Assembly (NCBI GenBank): GCA_031291305.1
Contig: JARLJH010000006.1
Coordinates: 1-64,000, forward strand
Reading direction: 5' to 3'
Length of the DNA: 64,000 nt
DNA from: Rhodoferax sp.
GTDB taxonomy: Bacteria > Pseudomonadota > Gammaproteobacteria > Burkholderiales > Burkholderiaceae_C
Below are positions 56,485 through 61,264 of the stretch, piece after piece (the stretch's first letter is position 1; the number at the start of each line of letters is the position of its first letter). The notes below the pieces were generated by a model that did no database searches, was not told the origin of the DNA, and was given only the letters and a program-made list of their open reading frames with translations. The translations under genes were made by a program, and so were the position numbers.

Positions 56485-57825
56485 TCAGACCTTCGGTGGA
56501 AACTGCACCGTCAGACATAAGCCGCCCAGAGTGCCAGATTCGTCCAGTGTGACACTGGCCTGGTGCGCATCAGCAATGGTTTTGACGATGGCCAGGCCCA
56601 GGCCGCTACCACTCACCTCAGTGCCGGCCACGCGGTAGAAGCGGTCCAGTACCCGGCTACGGTCAGTAGGTGCAATGCCGGGGCCGCTGTCTTCAACGGT
56701 CAGCCGGGTTGCCCCCGTCTGGGTATCCAGCGTCACGCGGATACGACCGCCGGTCGGGGTGTACTTGATGGCGTTGTCAATCAGGTTACGCACCAGAATG
56801 CGCAAGGCGTCGGATTGACCGGTCACCCACGCCGACTCGTTGCCGTGAAGATCGACGCCCAGTTCAAGTTGCTTGGACTCGGCCAGTGGTGCCATCTCCA
56901 CCAGCACGGCATTCGCCGTCGCGACCAAGTCCACGGATTTGGCGTCAGCCGTCGCCTGAGTGCCAGACTGCTGGCGCGCCAATACCAACAGTTGCTCAAT
57001 CAACCGGGTGGCGCGGTCAATGCCAGCGTTGAGTCGCTGGATGGCCGTGTCACGGCTAGCCTCATCCCCCGCCCGCCGCAGTGCCTGCACCTGCAGCTTC
57101 AGAGCAGCAAGGGGCGTGCGCAACTCGTGCGCAGCATCCGCGACGAAGTTTTTCTGCGCATCAAAGGCCTGTGTAACCCGCCTGAACAGCAGGTTGAACT
57201 CATGCACCAAGGGACGAATTTCGTCGGGCAAGGTCTCTTCGGTCAACTCACCCAATTCATCCACCTCGCGCGCTGCCACCTGCTGCTGAACCCGCCTGAC
57301 CGGCACCAACGAGGAGCTCACCACCCACCACACCAGGCCCATCAGCAGCGGCACCAGCGCCAGCGTGGGAATGACCGTGCGCAAAGCCAGTTTGGCGGCC
57401 ATGGTCTGGCGCACGCGCTCATCCTGCGCCACCTGAATCACTTGCGAACCGGTATCAAAAGAAAACAAACGATAGGTCGTGCCCCGCGCCTTGACGGTCG
57501 AAAAACCCATCACAGCACGCTGCGGCAAGGCCGCTCGTGCGGTGGACTGAAACAGGCTCAGTCCATCGACGGTCCAAACCTGGATAACAAAGTCATAGTG
57601 ATCGTCGTCGGCACGGTCGGGGTTCCCGGCAAGTTGACCACCCACTGGAATCCCTGGGCTCAGGGACAAGGCCATCTGGCGCATCTGGATGTCAAACAGC
57701 TCGTCAGCCTCTGCCAATGCCGAGCGATACGCCATGCTGGCTTGCAATAGGGCCGTGGCGACCACGGCCATCAACAAAAACCATAGCAACCGCGCGCGCA
57801 ACGAATGGGGGTTAGGAAGAATCAA
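56485..57825 (-). CDS. QseC/PmrB-like sensor histidine kinase
   Basis: A 446-residue kinase with two transmembrane segments (about 10-32 and 155-178), a periplasmic domain of about 120 residues, HAMP near 178-235, H-box AAHELRTPLAALKLQVQAL near 237, and ATP-binding motifs NLIDNAIKYTP, DSGPGIAP and GSGLGLAIV. The TTG start overlaps the regulator stop by two bases, so the pair is coupled. The group includes QseC and PmrB, but the ligand here is unknown. Confidence 0.91.
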   Translation of the reverse strand: MILPNPHSLRARLLWFLLMAVVATALLQASMAYRSALAEADELFDIQMRQMALSLSPGIPVGGQLAGNPDRADDDHYDFVIQVWTVDGLSLFQSTARAALPQRAVMGFSTVKARGTTYRLFSFDTGSQVIQVAQDERVRQTMAAKLALRTVIPTLALVPLLMGLVWWVVSSSLVPVRRVQQQVAAREVDELGELTEETLPDEIRPLVHEFNLLFRRVTQAFDAQKNFVADAAHELRTPLAALKLQVQALRRAGDEASRDTAIQRLNAGIDRATRLIEQLLVLARQQSGTQATADAKSVDLVATANAVLVEMAPLAESKQLELGVDLHGNESAWVTGQSDALRILVRNLIDNAIKYTPTGGRIRVTLDTQTGATRLTVEDSGPGIAPTDRSRVLDRFYRVAGTEVSGSGLGLAIVKTIADAHQASVTLDESGTLGGLCLTVQFPPKV

Positions 57826-58487
57826 GACTTCCCCCTGGGAATCATGTAACCCACGCCACGCACGTTTTCAATCAGATCGGCTCCCAGCTTTTTGCGCAAG
57901 CCATGGATGTACACCTCCACCGCATTGCTGCTGACATCGTCGCGCCAGCTGTAAATTTTGTCTTCGAGCTGTTTACGCGATAACACCATGCCTGGGCGCG
58001 CCAGCAAGAGCTCCAGCACCGACCACTCGCGGGCCGACAGGACAACAGGCTGGCCGTGGGCATGTACCTCGCGGGTCACGGGGTCGATACTCACACCCAT
58101 GTGTTCATACGTGGGTTCGGCGCGCCCGGACGCGCGGCGCAGCAGAGCCCGTATGCGCGCCAGCAATTCATCAAACTCGTAAGGTTTGATGATGTAGTCG
58201 TCAGCCCCCTTGTCCAAGCCCTGCACCCGCTCACTCAGCGCGTCACGCGCCGTGGCAATCAGCACGGGGACACGGTCTTTGCGGGCGCGCAGACGCTCCA
58301 GCACCGTCACGCCGTCGCATTTGGGCAAACCCAAATCCAGCAGCAGCAAGTCATAGCTCTGCTCCTGCAACACCTTGTCGGCCAGTTCGCCGTCCTTGAC
58401 CCAGTCCACCGCGTAGCCCTCGCCACGCAGCAAGTCCAGCACAGCTTCGCCAATCATCACATCGTCTTCAACCAGAAGTAGTCGCAT
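57822..58487 (-). CDS. QseB/PmrA-like OmpR-family response regulator
   Basis: A 221-residue regulator: receiver with LLVEDDVMIGEAVL, phosphoacceptor in LLLLDLGLPKCDG and Lys in DDYIIKPYEF, then a winged helix with VLSAREWSVLELLLARPG and NAVEVYIHGLRKKLG. ATG 58487 (MRLLLVEDD) was used; 28 upstream codons lack any receiver sequence. It is the first gene of a run with its kinase and mucD, transcribed away from the large gene-free gap. Confidence 0.93.
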   Translation of the reverse strand: MRLLLVEDDVMIGEAVLDLLRGEGYAVDWVKDGELADKVLQEQSYDLLLLDLGLPKCDGVTVLERLRARKDRVPVLIATARDALSERVQGLDKGADDYIIKPYEFDELLARIRALLRRASGRAEPTYEHMGVSIDPVTREVHAHGQPVVLSAREWSVLELLLARPGMVLSRKQLEDKIYSWRDDVSSNAVEVYIHGLRKKLGADLIENVRGVGYMIPRGKS

Positions 58488-58707
58488 CAGTTTTCCTAGA
58501 CCAGAGTGATATCCGTCAAAGCCGGGCTTTCCAGTCGGGTGCGGCGCGTTGCACAACCGTTCAGGCAACACTTCTTCAGTATCGTGCCAGTGCCAGCTTA
58601 GACGTGACTTAAAGAACCGCAGGATAAACGCATGGCTGTCAAAAACACACTATCGGGTGCGATTTAAAGTGATGTGTGCCGATAGAAAACCTCCTCTCTG
58701 CACGCCA

Positions 58708-58830
58708 GGGCGACCGGGCCAGGCGCATGCGGTTTTGGAGCCAAATCACGCGCGGGGCAGTACCATCAGTTCGCCAAATCCTGAGTCGCGCGCCTTTGGC
58801 CCCAAAGCCCGGTCGCCTGACCCAGCCACC
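58708..58830 (+). repeat. Large imperfect palindrome, element A
   Basis: The outer stem is GGGCCAGGCG (58716-58725) with CGCCTGACCC (58814-58823). The inner stem is TTTGGAGCCAAA (58734-58745) with TTTGGCCCCAAA (58795-58806). The tip stem is CGCGCG (58749-58754) with CGCGCG (58787-58792), and the loop is about 32 bases. Two short unpaired stretches separate the outer and inner stems. It is the reverse complement homologue of element B. Confidence 0.85.
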
Positions 58831-58871
58831 CTGTCTCAACCGTGTAGGTCTTGACGAATTTTGTAGAGAAA

Positions 58872-58910
58872 CAGCCTCAAGCCCTTATTGGACAATCGCT
58901 AGAAGCTATC
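58872..58910 (-). repeat. Dispersed repeat between hairpin elements A and B
   Basis: On the minus strand: GATAGCTTCTAGCGATTG then CAATAAGGGCTTGAGGCTG, matching the dispersed family with some changes in the 3' half. Confidence 0.6.
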
Positions 58911-59003
58911 AAAACTGGTGCACATTTTTCCCATATTTCCCTTGTTCCCTAGGTTGTCCGGGTTTCTTCTGACCCCGCGCGGCTTCAAAAGCCCATAAGG
59001 CGT

Positions 59004-59125
59004 GGTGGCTGGGTCAGGTGACCGGGCTTTGGGGTGAAATGCGCGCGTCTCAGGGATTGGCGCACTAGTCAACACCGCCCGCGCGTGCTTTCACCCCAAA
59101 ACCGCATGCACCTGACCCAGTCGCC
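59004..59125 (-). repeat. Large palindrome, element B (inverted copy of A)
   Basis: The outer stem is GGGTCAGGTG (59011-59020) with CACCTGACCC (59109-59118), fully paired. The inner stem is TTTGGGGTGAAA (59028-59039) with TTTCACCCCAAA (59089-59100), fully paired. The tip stem is CGCGCG (59042-59047) with CGCGCG (59080-59085). Relative to A, at least three base pairs change on both sides so that pairing is kept. Confidence 0.85.
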
Positions 59126-59266
59126 ACGCCGTACGTCGATGCTGCGGGTTTAACGCCCGGGACTCATCCCCATGAGCAACCCAAGAGACAGCGTTGGCGG
59201 CCTGACGGTCTGCGCCAACACACCACATCATTTGAATCGCACCGCACACCAGCCACGCCGCCACAT

Positions 59267-59282
59267 CTGATGTTTTATACAG
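59267..59282. promoter_or_regulatory. LexA-like box before radA
   Basis: CTGATGTTTTATACAG fits the CTGT-N8-ACAG SOS box with one mismatch, and its right half TATACAGTA is perfect. It lies 12 bases before the radA start codon, where repressor binding would block transcription or initiation. Confidence 0.45.
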
Positions 59283-59294
59283 TAATATTCATCC

Positions 59295-60707
59295 ATGGCT
59301 AAAGAAAAAACAGTTTACGTTTGCTCCGAATGTGGCGGCGTCAGCCCCAAATGGCAGGGCAAGTGCCCGAGTTGCAACGCCTGGAACACGCTGATCGAAT
59401 CGGCACCCGAGAGCACCGCACCCACCAAAAACCGCTTTGCCTCGCTGGCTAAAACTGCCGAAGTCGCCATTCTGGGTGACATTGACGCGGTGGACATGGC
59501 ACGCACCCCCACCGGCCACGACGAGCTGGATCGCGTACTGGGTGGCGGCATGGTTGAAGGCGGGGTGGTGCTGATCGGCGGCGACCCCGGCATTGGCAAA
59601 TCCACCTTGCTGTTGCAGGCCCTGGACTCGCTGCAGCGCAGTGGTCAAAGCACCTTGTATGTCACCGGCGAAGAAAGCGGTGCTCAAGTGGCGTTGCGCG
59701 CTCGACGCCTGGGGCTGGACGGCTCACAAGTACGGGTACTGGCCGAGATCGGGCTGGAAAAAATACTGGCCACGCTGGAGGCCACACGGCCGGATGTGGC
59801 GGTCATCGACTCGATTCAAACCGTGTATTCCGACCAGTTGACCTCGGCGCCCGGATCGGTGGCACAGGTGCGGGAATGCGCCGCGCACCTGACACGCTAT
59901 GCCAAAGCCAGCGGCCAGATGGATGGCGTGACGCGCGGACGCGCCACCAGCATCGTGCTGGTCGGCCATGTCACCAAAGAGGGCGCGCTGGCCGGGCCGC
60001 GCGTGCTGGAGCACATGGTGGATACCGTGCTGTATTTTGAAGGCGACACGCACAGCAGCTTTCGGCTGGTGCGCGCCATCAAAAACCGTTTTGGCGCGGT
60101 CAACGAGATTGGCGTATTTGCCATGACGGAAAAGGGGCTCAAGGGCGTCAGCAACCCGAGCGCCATTTTTCTGAGCCAGCACGCCGAGCCAGTGCCCGGC
60201 AGTTGCGTCATGGTCACGCTCGAAGGCACGCGCCCGATGTTGGTCGAAATTCAGGCGCTGGTGGACAGCGGAGGCCCCAGCCCACGGCGTTTGAGCGTCG
60301 GTCTGGATAAGGATCGCTTGGCGATGCTGCTGGCGGTGCTGCACCGTCACGCGGGCGTTGCGTGCATGGATCAGGATGTGTTTGTCAACGCGGTTGGAGG
60401 CGTCAGAATATCGGAACCCGCAGCAGATCTGGCTGTACTGCTATCAATTACGTCAAGCCTGCGTGGTAAGCCGCTGCCGAAAGGATTTTTTGCGTTTGGC
60501 GAAATAGGCTTGGCTGGTGAGGTGCGCCCGGCACCGCGCGGGCAAGAGCGCCTGAAAGAAGCCGCCAAACTGGGTTTCAGCGTGGCCCTGGTGCCCAAGG
60601 CCAACCTGCCCAAAAACCTCAAGTCCAAGGACTTTGAGGGCCTGACCATCCACGCCGTTGAGCGCGTGGAAGAGGCCATGGCCGTGGTGCGTGACCTGGC
60701 TTATTGA
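59295..60707 (+). CDS. radA: DNA repair protein RadA
   Basis: A 470-residue RecA-like protein that aids branch migration in recombination and natural transformation. The N-terminal zinc finger has C4 residues in YVCSECGGVSPKWQGKCPSC. Walker A is GGDPGIGKSTLL near 94. The RadA signature KNRFG is in IKNRFGAVNEIG near 260, followed by the Lon-like C-terminal domain (GLAGEVRPAPRGQERLKEA). The ATG begins MAKEKTVYVC, the family start. It overlaps the next gene's 3' end on the opposite strand by seven bases. Confidence 0.95.
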   Translation: MAKEKTVYVCSECGGVSPKWQGKCPSCNAWNTLIESAPESTAPTKNRFASLAKTAEVAILGDIDAVDMARTPTGHDELDRVLGGGMVEGGVVLIGGDPGIGKSTLLLQALDSLQRSGQSTLYVTGEESGAQVALRARRLGLDGSQVRVLAEIGLEKILATLEATRPDVAVIDSIQTVYSDQLTSAPGSVAQVRECAAHLTRYAKASGQMDGVTRGRATSIVLVGHVTKEGALAGPRVLEHMVDTVLYFEGDTHSSFRLVRAIKNRFGAVNEIGVFAMTEKGLKGVSNPSAIFLSQHAEPVPGSCVMVTLEGTRPMLVEIQALVDSGGPSPRRLSVGLDKDRLAMLLAVLHRHAGVACMDQDVFVNAVGGVRISEPAADLAVLLSITSSLRGKPLPKGFFAFGEIGLAGEVRPAPRGQERLKEAAKLGFSVALVPKANLPKNLKSKDFEGLTIHAVERVEEAMAVVRDLAY

Positions 60708-61264
60708 GCGGCTGGGGATTCCAGCATCTTGAGAACCCGGTCGGTCAGATCGTTTTTCGGATCGACAAACACGGCGTTTTGAAGCACAAAGTCCAGCTTT
60801 TCAGTGGTGGCCAGTTGCTTGACCACCTTGTTGGTGCTGGCGATCAGTTTTTGCAGTTCCTCATTCTTGCGCTTGTTCAGGTCTTCCTGAAAATTGCGCT
60901 GTGTACGTTGAAGTTCGCGTTCCTGATCCATCAGCTTCTTCTGCTGCTCCACACGCTTGGCCTCTGCCAATACTGGTGCATCGGTCTGGAACTTGGTCAC
61001 CGCCGCCTTGAAGGTGCTGTCTTCTGCAACCATATCTTTCTGACGCGTTGAAAATTCTTTTTCCAACTTGCTCTGACTGACCTTGGCCGGTGCAGATTCT
61101 TTCAATACGCGTTCCAGATTGACAAAACCAATGCGGCTGGCAGAGAAGTCAGCGGCTTGCGCAAGGCCGGTGCCACCCAGCAGCAAGGTGCCCAATGCCA
61201 GGCCGGTACCCCAGCGAATAAATGTGCTTTTTGTATGTAAGAAGGTTTGACAATTGATGAACAT
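60701..61264 (-). CDS. OmpH/Skp family periplasmic chaperone
   Basis: A 187-residue exported protein. A long signal peptide ends near AQAADFSASR (about residue 38). The mature part opens with IGFVNLERVLKESAPA and continues as a long Glu/Lys/Gln-rich coiled coil (QQKKLMDQERELQRTQRNFQ) typical of Skp/OmpH, which hold unfolded outer-membrane proteins. The usual skp neighbours bamA and lpxD are absent here, so it may be a second paralogue. The ATG 61264 start was chosen; earlier codons are unlikely. Confidence 0.85.
   Translation of the reverse strand: MFINCQTFLHTKSTFIRWGTGLALGTLLLGGTGLAQAADFSASRIGFVNLERVLKESAPAKVSQSKLEKEFSTRQKDMVAEDSTFKAAVTKFQTDAPVLAEAKRVEQQKKLMDQERELQRTQRNFQEDLNKRKNEELQKLIASTNKVVKQLATTEKLDFVLQNAVFVDPKNDLTDRVLKMLESPAAQ

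Follow-up and report, generated by a model that had tools for sequence, protein, structure and literature searches.

The window analysed here is a 64,000-nucleotide stretch of a Rhodoferax contig, in which the gene for a two-component response regulator and radA point away from each other across a gap of 807 bp. Codon-usage calling placed no gene between 58488 and 59294, a region that holds short mechanically defined open reading frames, and we found no promoter-like site in 58480-59300. A sequence-only reading had described two palindromes in this gap, A and B, as reverse-complement homologues that each fold on themselves into a long hairpin. Their positions were right, although the frame drawn around them was too narrow: each palindrome belongs to a hairpin unit of about 135 nt, and both units, which face apart, lie within a 590-bp non-autonomous element resembling the miniature inverted-repeat transposable elements (MITEs), whose terminal repeats lie beyond the two palindromes (Table 1). 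A repeat search of the sequence likewise recovered an inverted pair outside both palindromes (58656-58668 with 59231-59243).

Table 1. Features of the response-regulator/radA gap and its flanks (positions in the window)
Feature	Position	Strand	Remarks
Two-component response regulator	57822-58487	-	flanking gene
Left copy of 9-bp target duplication	58646-58654	.	CACACTATC; 7/9 identical to right copy
MITE-like element	58655-59244		590 bp; encloses both palindromes
Left 14-bp terminal inverted repeat	58655-58668	+	GGGTGCGATTTAAA
Left hairpin unit (type 1)	58702-58836	-	folded strand outward to left; contains palindrome A (58708-58830)
Spacer separating the units	58837-58997	.	
Core repeat in spacer	58883-58914		CCTTAT..CGCT..AGCTATCAAAA; single occurrence in window
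Right hairpin unit (type 1)	58998-59132	+	folded strand outward to right; contains palindrome B (59004-59125)
Subterminal small inverted repeat	59193-59219	.	GTTGGCG...CGCCAAC; near right end; by eye; present in some other copies
Right 14-bp terminal inverted repeat	59231-59244	-	TTTGAATCGCACCG; last base G against C in other copies
Right copy of 9-bp target duplication	59245-59253	.	CACACCAGC
radA	59295-60707	+	flanking gene; TIGR00416

The homology of A and B is evident from inverted pairs that are complementary at 87% over 63 nt and at 82% over 55 nt, and both palindromes, folded as DNA, beat 200 of 200 dinucleotide shuffles on either strand (z-scores on the two strands of -3.42 and -3.78 for A, and of -6.39 and -6.82 for B). 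The paired differences reported between them also agree with the bases present: CC at 58741-58742 with GG at 58798-58799 has its counterpart in TG at 59035-59036 with CA at 59092-59093, and C58724-G58815 in T59019-A59110. Built on the outward strand, our covariance model (R1) scores the right unit at 143.7 bits on the plus strand and 71.3 on the minus strand, and the left unit at 138.6 bits on the minus strand and 47.0 on the plus strand. An Rfam search of 57000-61000 returned no family, its one match being to mir-4888 (E 2.5; 21.1 against 90 bits).

Copies of the element are dispersed. Searched by BLASTN with 58600-59290, its own genome (4.98 Mb in 69 contigs) yielded 48 rows, which we read as 18 places. 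Both units are present at ten of these, one being the window copy itself and the others sharing 75-82% identity; in several of the ten, not all, conservation extends to the outer repeats. Within the genus, matches at E 0.001 come from 24 of 60 genomes (own genome counted, a few weakly), and a 23-base pattern recovered 56 stretches, in records whose titles name Rhodoferax (strain U2-2l among the carriers), Comamonadaceae or an uncultured beta proteobacterium; across the family, under strict filters, the covariance model matches 5 of 250 genomes, which represent 3 of 141 genera and include the element's own. Plasmid and phage records gave no match to the element, nor did viral contigs to a 20-base end. 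The sequence-only reading had proposed a search for further copies, allowing both for their complete absence from related genomes and for conservation beside radA only; homologous copies are instead found in other Rhodoferax genomes and at many other sites, and, by comparison of their flanks, some units from different species occupy orthologous positions. Our collection comprises 158 unit copies (122 distinct) at 105 loci, from which six distinct units (with N, or from loci L070, L072, L081 and L097) were dropped, leaving 116 for the counts of strand, substitutions and tags. All 42 listed pairs of units are arranged -/+, i.e., the strand that reads from inside to outside is minus at the left and plus at the right; the exception to paired arrangement is a locus (L277) with three units in the order -, +, -.

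Terminal repeats were sought with the pattern GGTGCGATTCAAA (at most three mismatches) within 220 bp outside the units of 44 distinct divergent pairs, and were found at the left of 21 pairs and at the right of 25; with the pattern reversed these counts fall to 2 and 2, and in the wrong orientation to 2 and 0. Among 89 genomes of the genus, 31 contain the exact 14-base end (reversed control, 1 of 89), and in the family a 16-base end is present in 5 of 399 genomes and 4 of 141 genera. The genomes with many exact ends (GGGTGCGATTCAAA) are G328, G329 and G055, with the highest numbers of the 14-base form in G328 (59) and G329 (71); R1 finds no unit in the one G328 element that we read (273 bp). 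In G055, 11 of 20 stretches are elements with both ends (nine one-ended ones were left out), 349-710 bp long and about 80-92% alike over most of their aligned parts. Together with 13 others, the window's included, they make up 24 elements whose flanks carry 9-bp direct repeats matching at a mean of 6.0 of 9 positions, against 2.34 for mismatched flanks. Perfect duplications number 7 of 24 (0 of 552 mismatched flanks) and those with at least 7/9 identity 13 of 24 (3 of 552), the remaining 11 falling below 7/9; lengths of 7, 8 and 10 bp gave no comparable signal, except that one element (L302) fits 8 bp. A search for flanking duplications had also been proposed, and the window copy does have one, though decayed to 7/9.

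Empty sites complement this picture. The response-regulator/radA gap of 807 bp measures 195 and 196 bp in two relatives (G054 and G004), and the window copy is therefore a lineage-specific insertion; the flanks are too diverged for the target duplication at radA to be read from the empty site alone. The comparison covered 30 radA loci, with a response-regulator match in four (the window included, one weak and partial) and none in the covered stretch of the other 26. G055, one of these 26, has a unit about 510 bp upstream of radA, and a fragment of a group II intron reverse transcriptase (L192:3089-3499) is found about 440 bp from a type-1 unit upstream of radA in that genome. For the copies at two further loci, L004 and L010, the homologous flanks are 25 (G005), 15 (G004) and 20 (G317) bp apart in the closest relatives, while other relatives have longer gaps filled with other sequence (32-182 bp at the L004 site and 66-1025 bp at the L010 site); none of the 19 loci compared for these two sites holds a unit.

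The element has no transposase gene, and in the loci examined we found neither a transposase with these ends nor an autonomous partner. An IS6 gene beside one end (L290) was rejected as a partner since it has its own ends, by eye, and is nested inside the element; it belongs to an IS6-family insertion sequence at about 612-1415, with its gene split by a stop, that sits within a terminal-repeat element at the hairpin. An IS3 fragment beside another end (L325) was likewise set aside, as its match stops short of the repeat. The element shows several defining features of MITEs, namely 14-bp terminal repeats, a fixed 9-bp target duplication and the lack of its own transposase gene. With its dispersed copies and empty sites, this is in substance the non-autonomous mobile palindrome that had been listed among the candidates for A and B.

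Judged from the elements that lack them, the palindromes look like cargo and not like the ends of a mobile element, because four shorter copies in G055 that lack a type-1 unit still possess both ends and are flanked by duplications of 8/9 or 9/9, although loss of the unit after insertion is possible in these four. Five other G055 elements, of 507-513 bp, combine one type-1 unit with one hairpin that, by reading the letters, resembles a second dispersed structured family, type 2 (e.g., L106:1815-1957 on the minus strand, L270-L276 and L284). Type-2 hairpins share the largely conserved words AAAT(C/A)AAGGAGGAGG and GGGGGACATYCGCGGAGT, often with GCGGGTTAAA at the 3′ end, and 8 of their 34 pairs have changed on both sides; in L284 and between cysD and cysN, type 2 partners type 1, again facing outward.

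The compensatory change first noticed between A and B is general to the type-1 family. From 38 units picked to be less than 87% alike, three were left out, and the remaining 35 diverse units were compared over a 45-pair model that excludes apical pairs past position 44 of the reference fold. Standard pairs occupy 97.0% of the 1575 pair cells, and 16 of the 45 pairs, in 104 cells, have changed on both sides, neither figure being reached in 500 shuffles; when the structure is slid by 1-3 columns, only 5-16 cells show both-sided changes. The covariation score is 0.236, against 0.123 in shuffled and at most 0.077 in slid alignments. One pair varies among C-G, U-A and G-C, and the internal-loop bases are nearly invariant. 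A bulged A, a CAU bulge and a GC/A loop are predicted to stay open in the folded unit. Covariation of the kind that marks a functional structured RNA is therefore present beyond both controls. One and the same variant, GGGCTACTGCG (ACTTCG in L307), replaces GGGCTTTGGGG and breaks pairing in two species (L058, L064 and L338 in G033; L307 and L308 in G055).

Each G.U pair of one strand corresponds to an A.C mismatch on the other, and the imbalance between the two among pairs whose commonest state is Watson-Crick names the strand that is folded. Read on the outward strand, the 35 diverse units have 69 G.U against 12 A.C (other mismatches, 33), or by column 17 against 3 with one tie, and the 116 units have 225 against 30. 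The excess is present both where the outward strand is the contig's minus strand, namely in left members of pairs and in singles (129 G.U, 17 A.C), and in the remaining units (96 and 13). A strand bias of mutation does not explain it, because substitutions in the unpaired columns of the outward strand run the opposite way (C>T 7.1% against G>A 10.7%; A>G 4.3% against T>C 18.2%) to those in the paired columns (C>T 3.6% against G>A 1.2%; A>G 8.2% against T>C 4.2%). Shuffling the 3′ letters within columns retains most of the G.U-minus-A.C excess (57 observed, mean 50.8, 54 of 1000 shuffles as high): the asymmetry lies in which changes the columns tolerate, and many units share ancestry and are not independent. 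Such survival is expected if selection acts on column tolerance, so the shuffle is no independent proof.

From these patterns we infer selection on a single-stranded fold of the outward strand, with RNA a likelier identity for that strand than single-stranded DNA; that the fold is kept on one strand suggests that the folded molecule, probably RNA, does something useful. Of the two other candidates raised for the palindromes, a protein-binding cruciform in double-stranded DNA would give no reason to expect G.U to exceed A.C, while a two-faced structured RNA is supported in part, as far as sequence can show: a one-strand fold is indeed kept by the evidence of the alignments, yet each unit is single-faced and the two units use opposite strands. 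Template-switch copying between palindrome arms could yield compensatory changes with no selection at all, and the joint difference of neighbouring pairs (CC/GG to TG/CA) would be in keeping with it; such copying, however, gives Watson-Crick pairs and no strand preference, in conflict with ratios of 69 to 12 in the 35 diverse units and 21 to 1 among the cysD-cysN units described below, and the internal-loop bases are conserved as well. We regard it as very improbable.

In 13 aligned loci that contain both cysD and cysN, a full single type-1 unit lies between the two genes. This set was drawn from 34 entries and leaves out five that lacked flank, two (L034 and L144) that repeat L160 and L149, one partial unit (L167) and one full unit whose gap was cut by the coordinates (L159). 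The orthologous units show the same preference for the outward strand, and within their 13 gaps no terminal repeat is found at up to three mismatches; they may formerly have possessed such repeats. Their folded strand is antisense to the operon, so a simple mRNA-leader role fits poorly, and Rfam recognises no family in the cysDN region. More widely (L148-L177), some species lack the cysD-cysN gap, while in others it contains type 1, type 2, the two together, or different sequence that in part looks hairpin-like by eye; it seems to be an intercistronic spot that gathers hairpins.

Single units of this kind bear on the possibility that the hairpins are independent mobile units, similar to REPs or REPINs, that were trapped secondarily between terminal repeats, a scenario compatible with a MITE. 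It would account for units without terminal repeats at cysDN and at the orthologous site L041/L107 (where no terminal end is found within one mismatch), for the two inverted halves that make up each unit, as in a REPIN, and for elements with exact ends 82 and 87 bp apart, a spacing that leaves no room for a unit. We nevertheless consider it improbable: a Y1 transposase match is present in 23 of 24 genomes, yet R1 detects none of the hairpin units at the 30 Y1 loci obtained from those 23 genomes; the 116 units share no foot tag (GTAG near the 5′ foot in 4 and near the 3′ foot in 7; CGTC in 8 and 19); and neither a duplication nor an empty site is seen for a single unit.

The hairpins might also act as single-stranded DNA, with the outward strand, whose 3′ end lies at each terminus, folding during transposition or replication for recognition or protection. 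The -/+ arrangement, symmetric about the element like the ends of a transposon, would suit this role, as would pairs that are homotypic or of two different hairpin families and outward in those read, and G.T is better tolerated than A.C in DNA too. Conversely, transposons of the DDE type with terminal repeats act on double-stranded DNA, ends and duplications are both present in the four G055 copies that have no type-1 unit, and the cysDN units keep the same strand preference (G.U 21 against A.C 1, counting pairs that are most often Watson-Crick) despite lacking terminal repeats. We judge a role as single-stranded DNA rather unlikely, and RNA remains our preferred identity for the folded strand.

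ERIC, Correia/NEMIS, BOX and RUP are intergenic mobile hairpins able to act in mRNA, and to that extent resemble this element; they belong to other clades, from which we set it apart by their general description and not by sequence, and we know of no divergent pair of long hairpins within one element among them. These families are listed in PMC3110155, the available text of which also reports a beta-proteobacterial repeat element (BRE) in Rhodoferax ferrireducens T118 and Polaromonas JS666. Like our element, the BRE is a GC-rich repeat usually found between genes; as described there, however, it is 75-91 bp long in Bordetella, often tandem and VNTR-like, a distinction by description and not by sequence. 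REP, BIME and REPIN sequences associated with RAYTs share with our element the spread of inverted palindrome pairs between genes, going by the portions of PMC3116915, PMC2817692 and PMC3733652 at hand; they differ in that REPs are 20-40 bp (PMC3733652, same portion) against units of about 135 nt, and in the terminal repeats and 9-bp duplications of our element.

In a sister genus, units 0.9-1.1 kb apart flank a lone gene for which no Pfam family exceeds its cut-off (L138:2007-3266 and L146:3094-4499), and such single odd genes led us to consider integron attC sites. These were rejected, as none of the 116 units has both core boxes (RYYYAAC in 9 and GTTRRRY in 5; reversed controls 2, 0 and, for both, 0); an integrase scores above cut-off in 6 of 14 genomes, the element's own genome not among them. 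The words RYYYAAC and GTTRRRY both occur, by eye, in the L138 stretch. At another locus (L086:782-3167), two hairpin-unit parts about 2.2 kb apart have between them what by eye appear to be Mu-type phage head genes.

The closest likeness is to MITEs: the element is short, with no gene called, has 14-bp terminal repeats and 9-bp direct repeats, and is dispersed, mostly intergenic and predicted to yield a folded transcript. The part of PMC10969869 available to us states that MITE transcripts form stable stem-loops and describes QMITE2 of Coxiella, with direct repeats of 7-9 bp and a predicted transcript fold; a folded cargo is therefore not new in kind. What distinguishes the present element is that its hairpin modules face outward, covary and are kept on one strand, and that they are variously combined between elements and also found without terminal repeats. 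As far as the literature searched goes, the evidence for strand-specific selection, the modular outward pairs and the single modules kept without ends are new. We recognised no description of the element in that literature, though the Polaromonas JS666 genome paper, cited for MITEs in the accessible part of PMC10969869, may contain one.

The gene context of the pairs is mildly biased, with 18 of 37 between divergent genes by a codon-based caller, against 16 of 52 background gaps of at least 150 bp; cruder gene calls gave 11 of 16 once cases with an internal open reading frame were set aside. In view of the codon-based figures we do not press a model in which the hairpins serve as 5′ leaders.

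We posit, with a probability of roughly 0.7, that this is a MITE-like element mobilised in trans, carrying two outward hairpin modules that are selected as a single-stranded fold, thought to be RNA. A transposase made elsewhere would act on the 14-bp terminal repeats and, by inserting the element, would create the 9-bp target duplication. The two modules of about 135 nt, one reading outward to each end, would be maintained by selection as folds of the outward strand, presumably in RNA form. Transcripts that exit the element through a unit would then add to the neighbouring transcript a long hairpin, either RNase-resistant or bound by protein; this could limit the harm of insertion, and the host may in places take over the hairpin, e.g., between cysD and cysN.

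To our knowledge, selection on the RNA fold of a bacterial MITE has been demonstrated in few cases. Here, more than 100 divergent copies allow a direct test of selection on the fold, and the asymmetry of G.U over A.C names the strand on which it acts. More speculatively, and as a possibility to which we give distinctly less weight, a family of selfish elements may spread modular outward RNA hairpins of at least two families, with hosts keeping single modules as regulatory RNAs after the ends decay; on this view, sulfate activation would be under the control of a domesticated cis-antisense regulator, the unit between cysD and cysN. That unit, kept across species without transposon ends, allows the conversion of a mobile hairpin into a host element to be put to the test.
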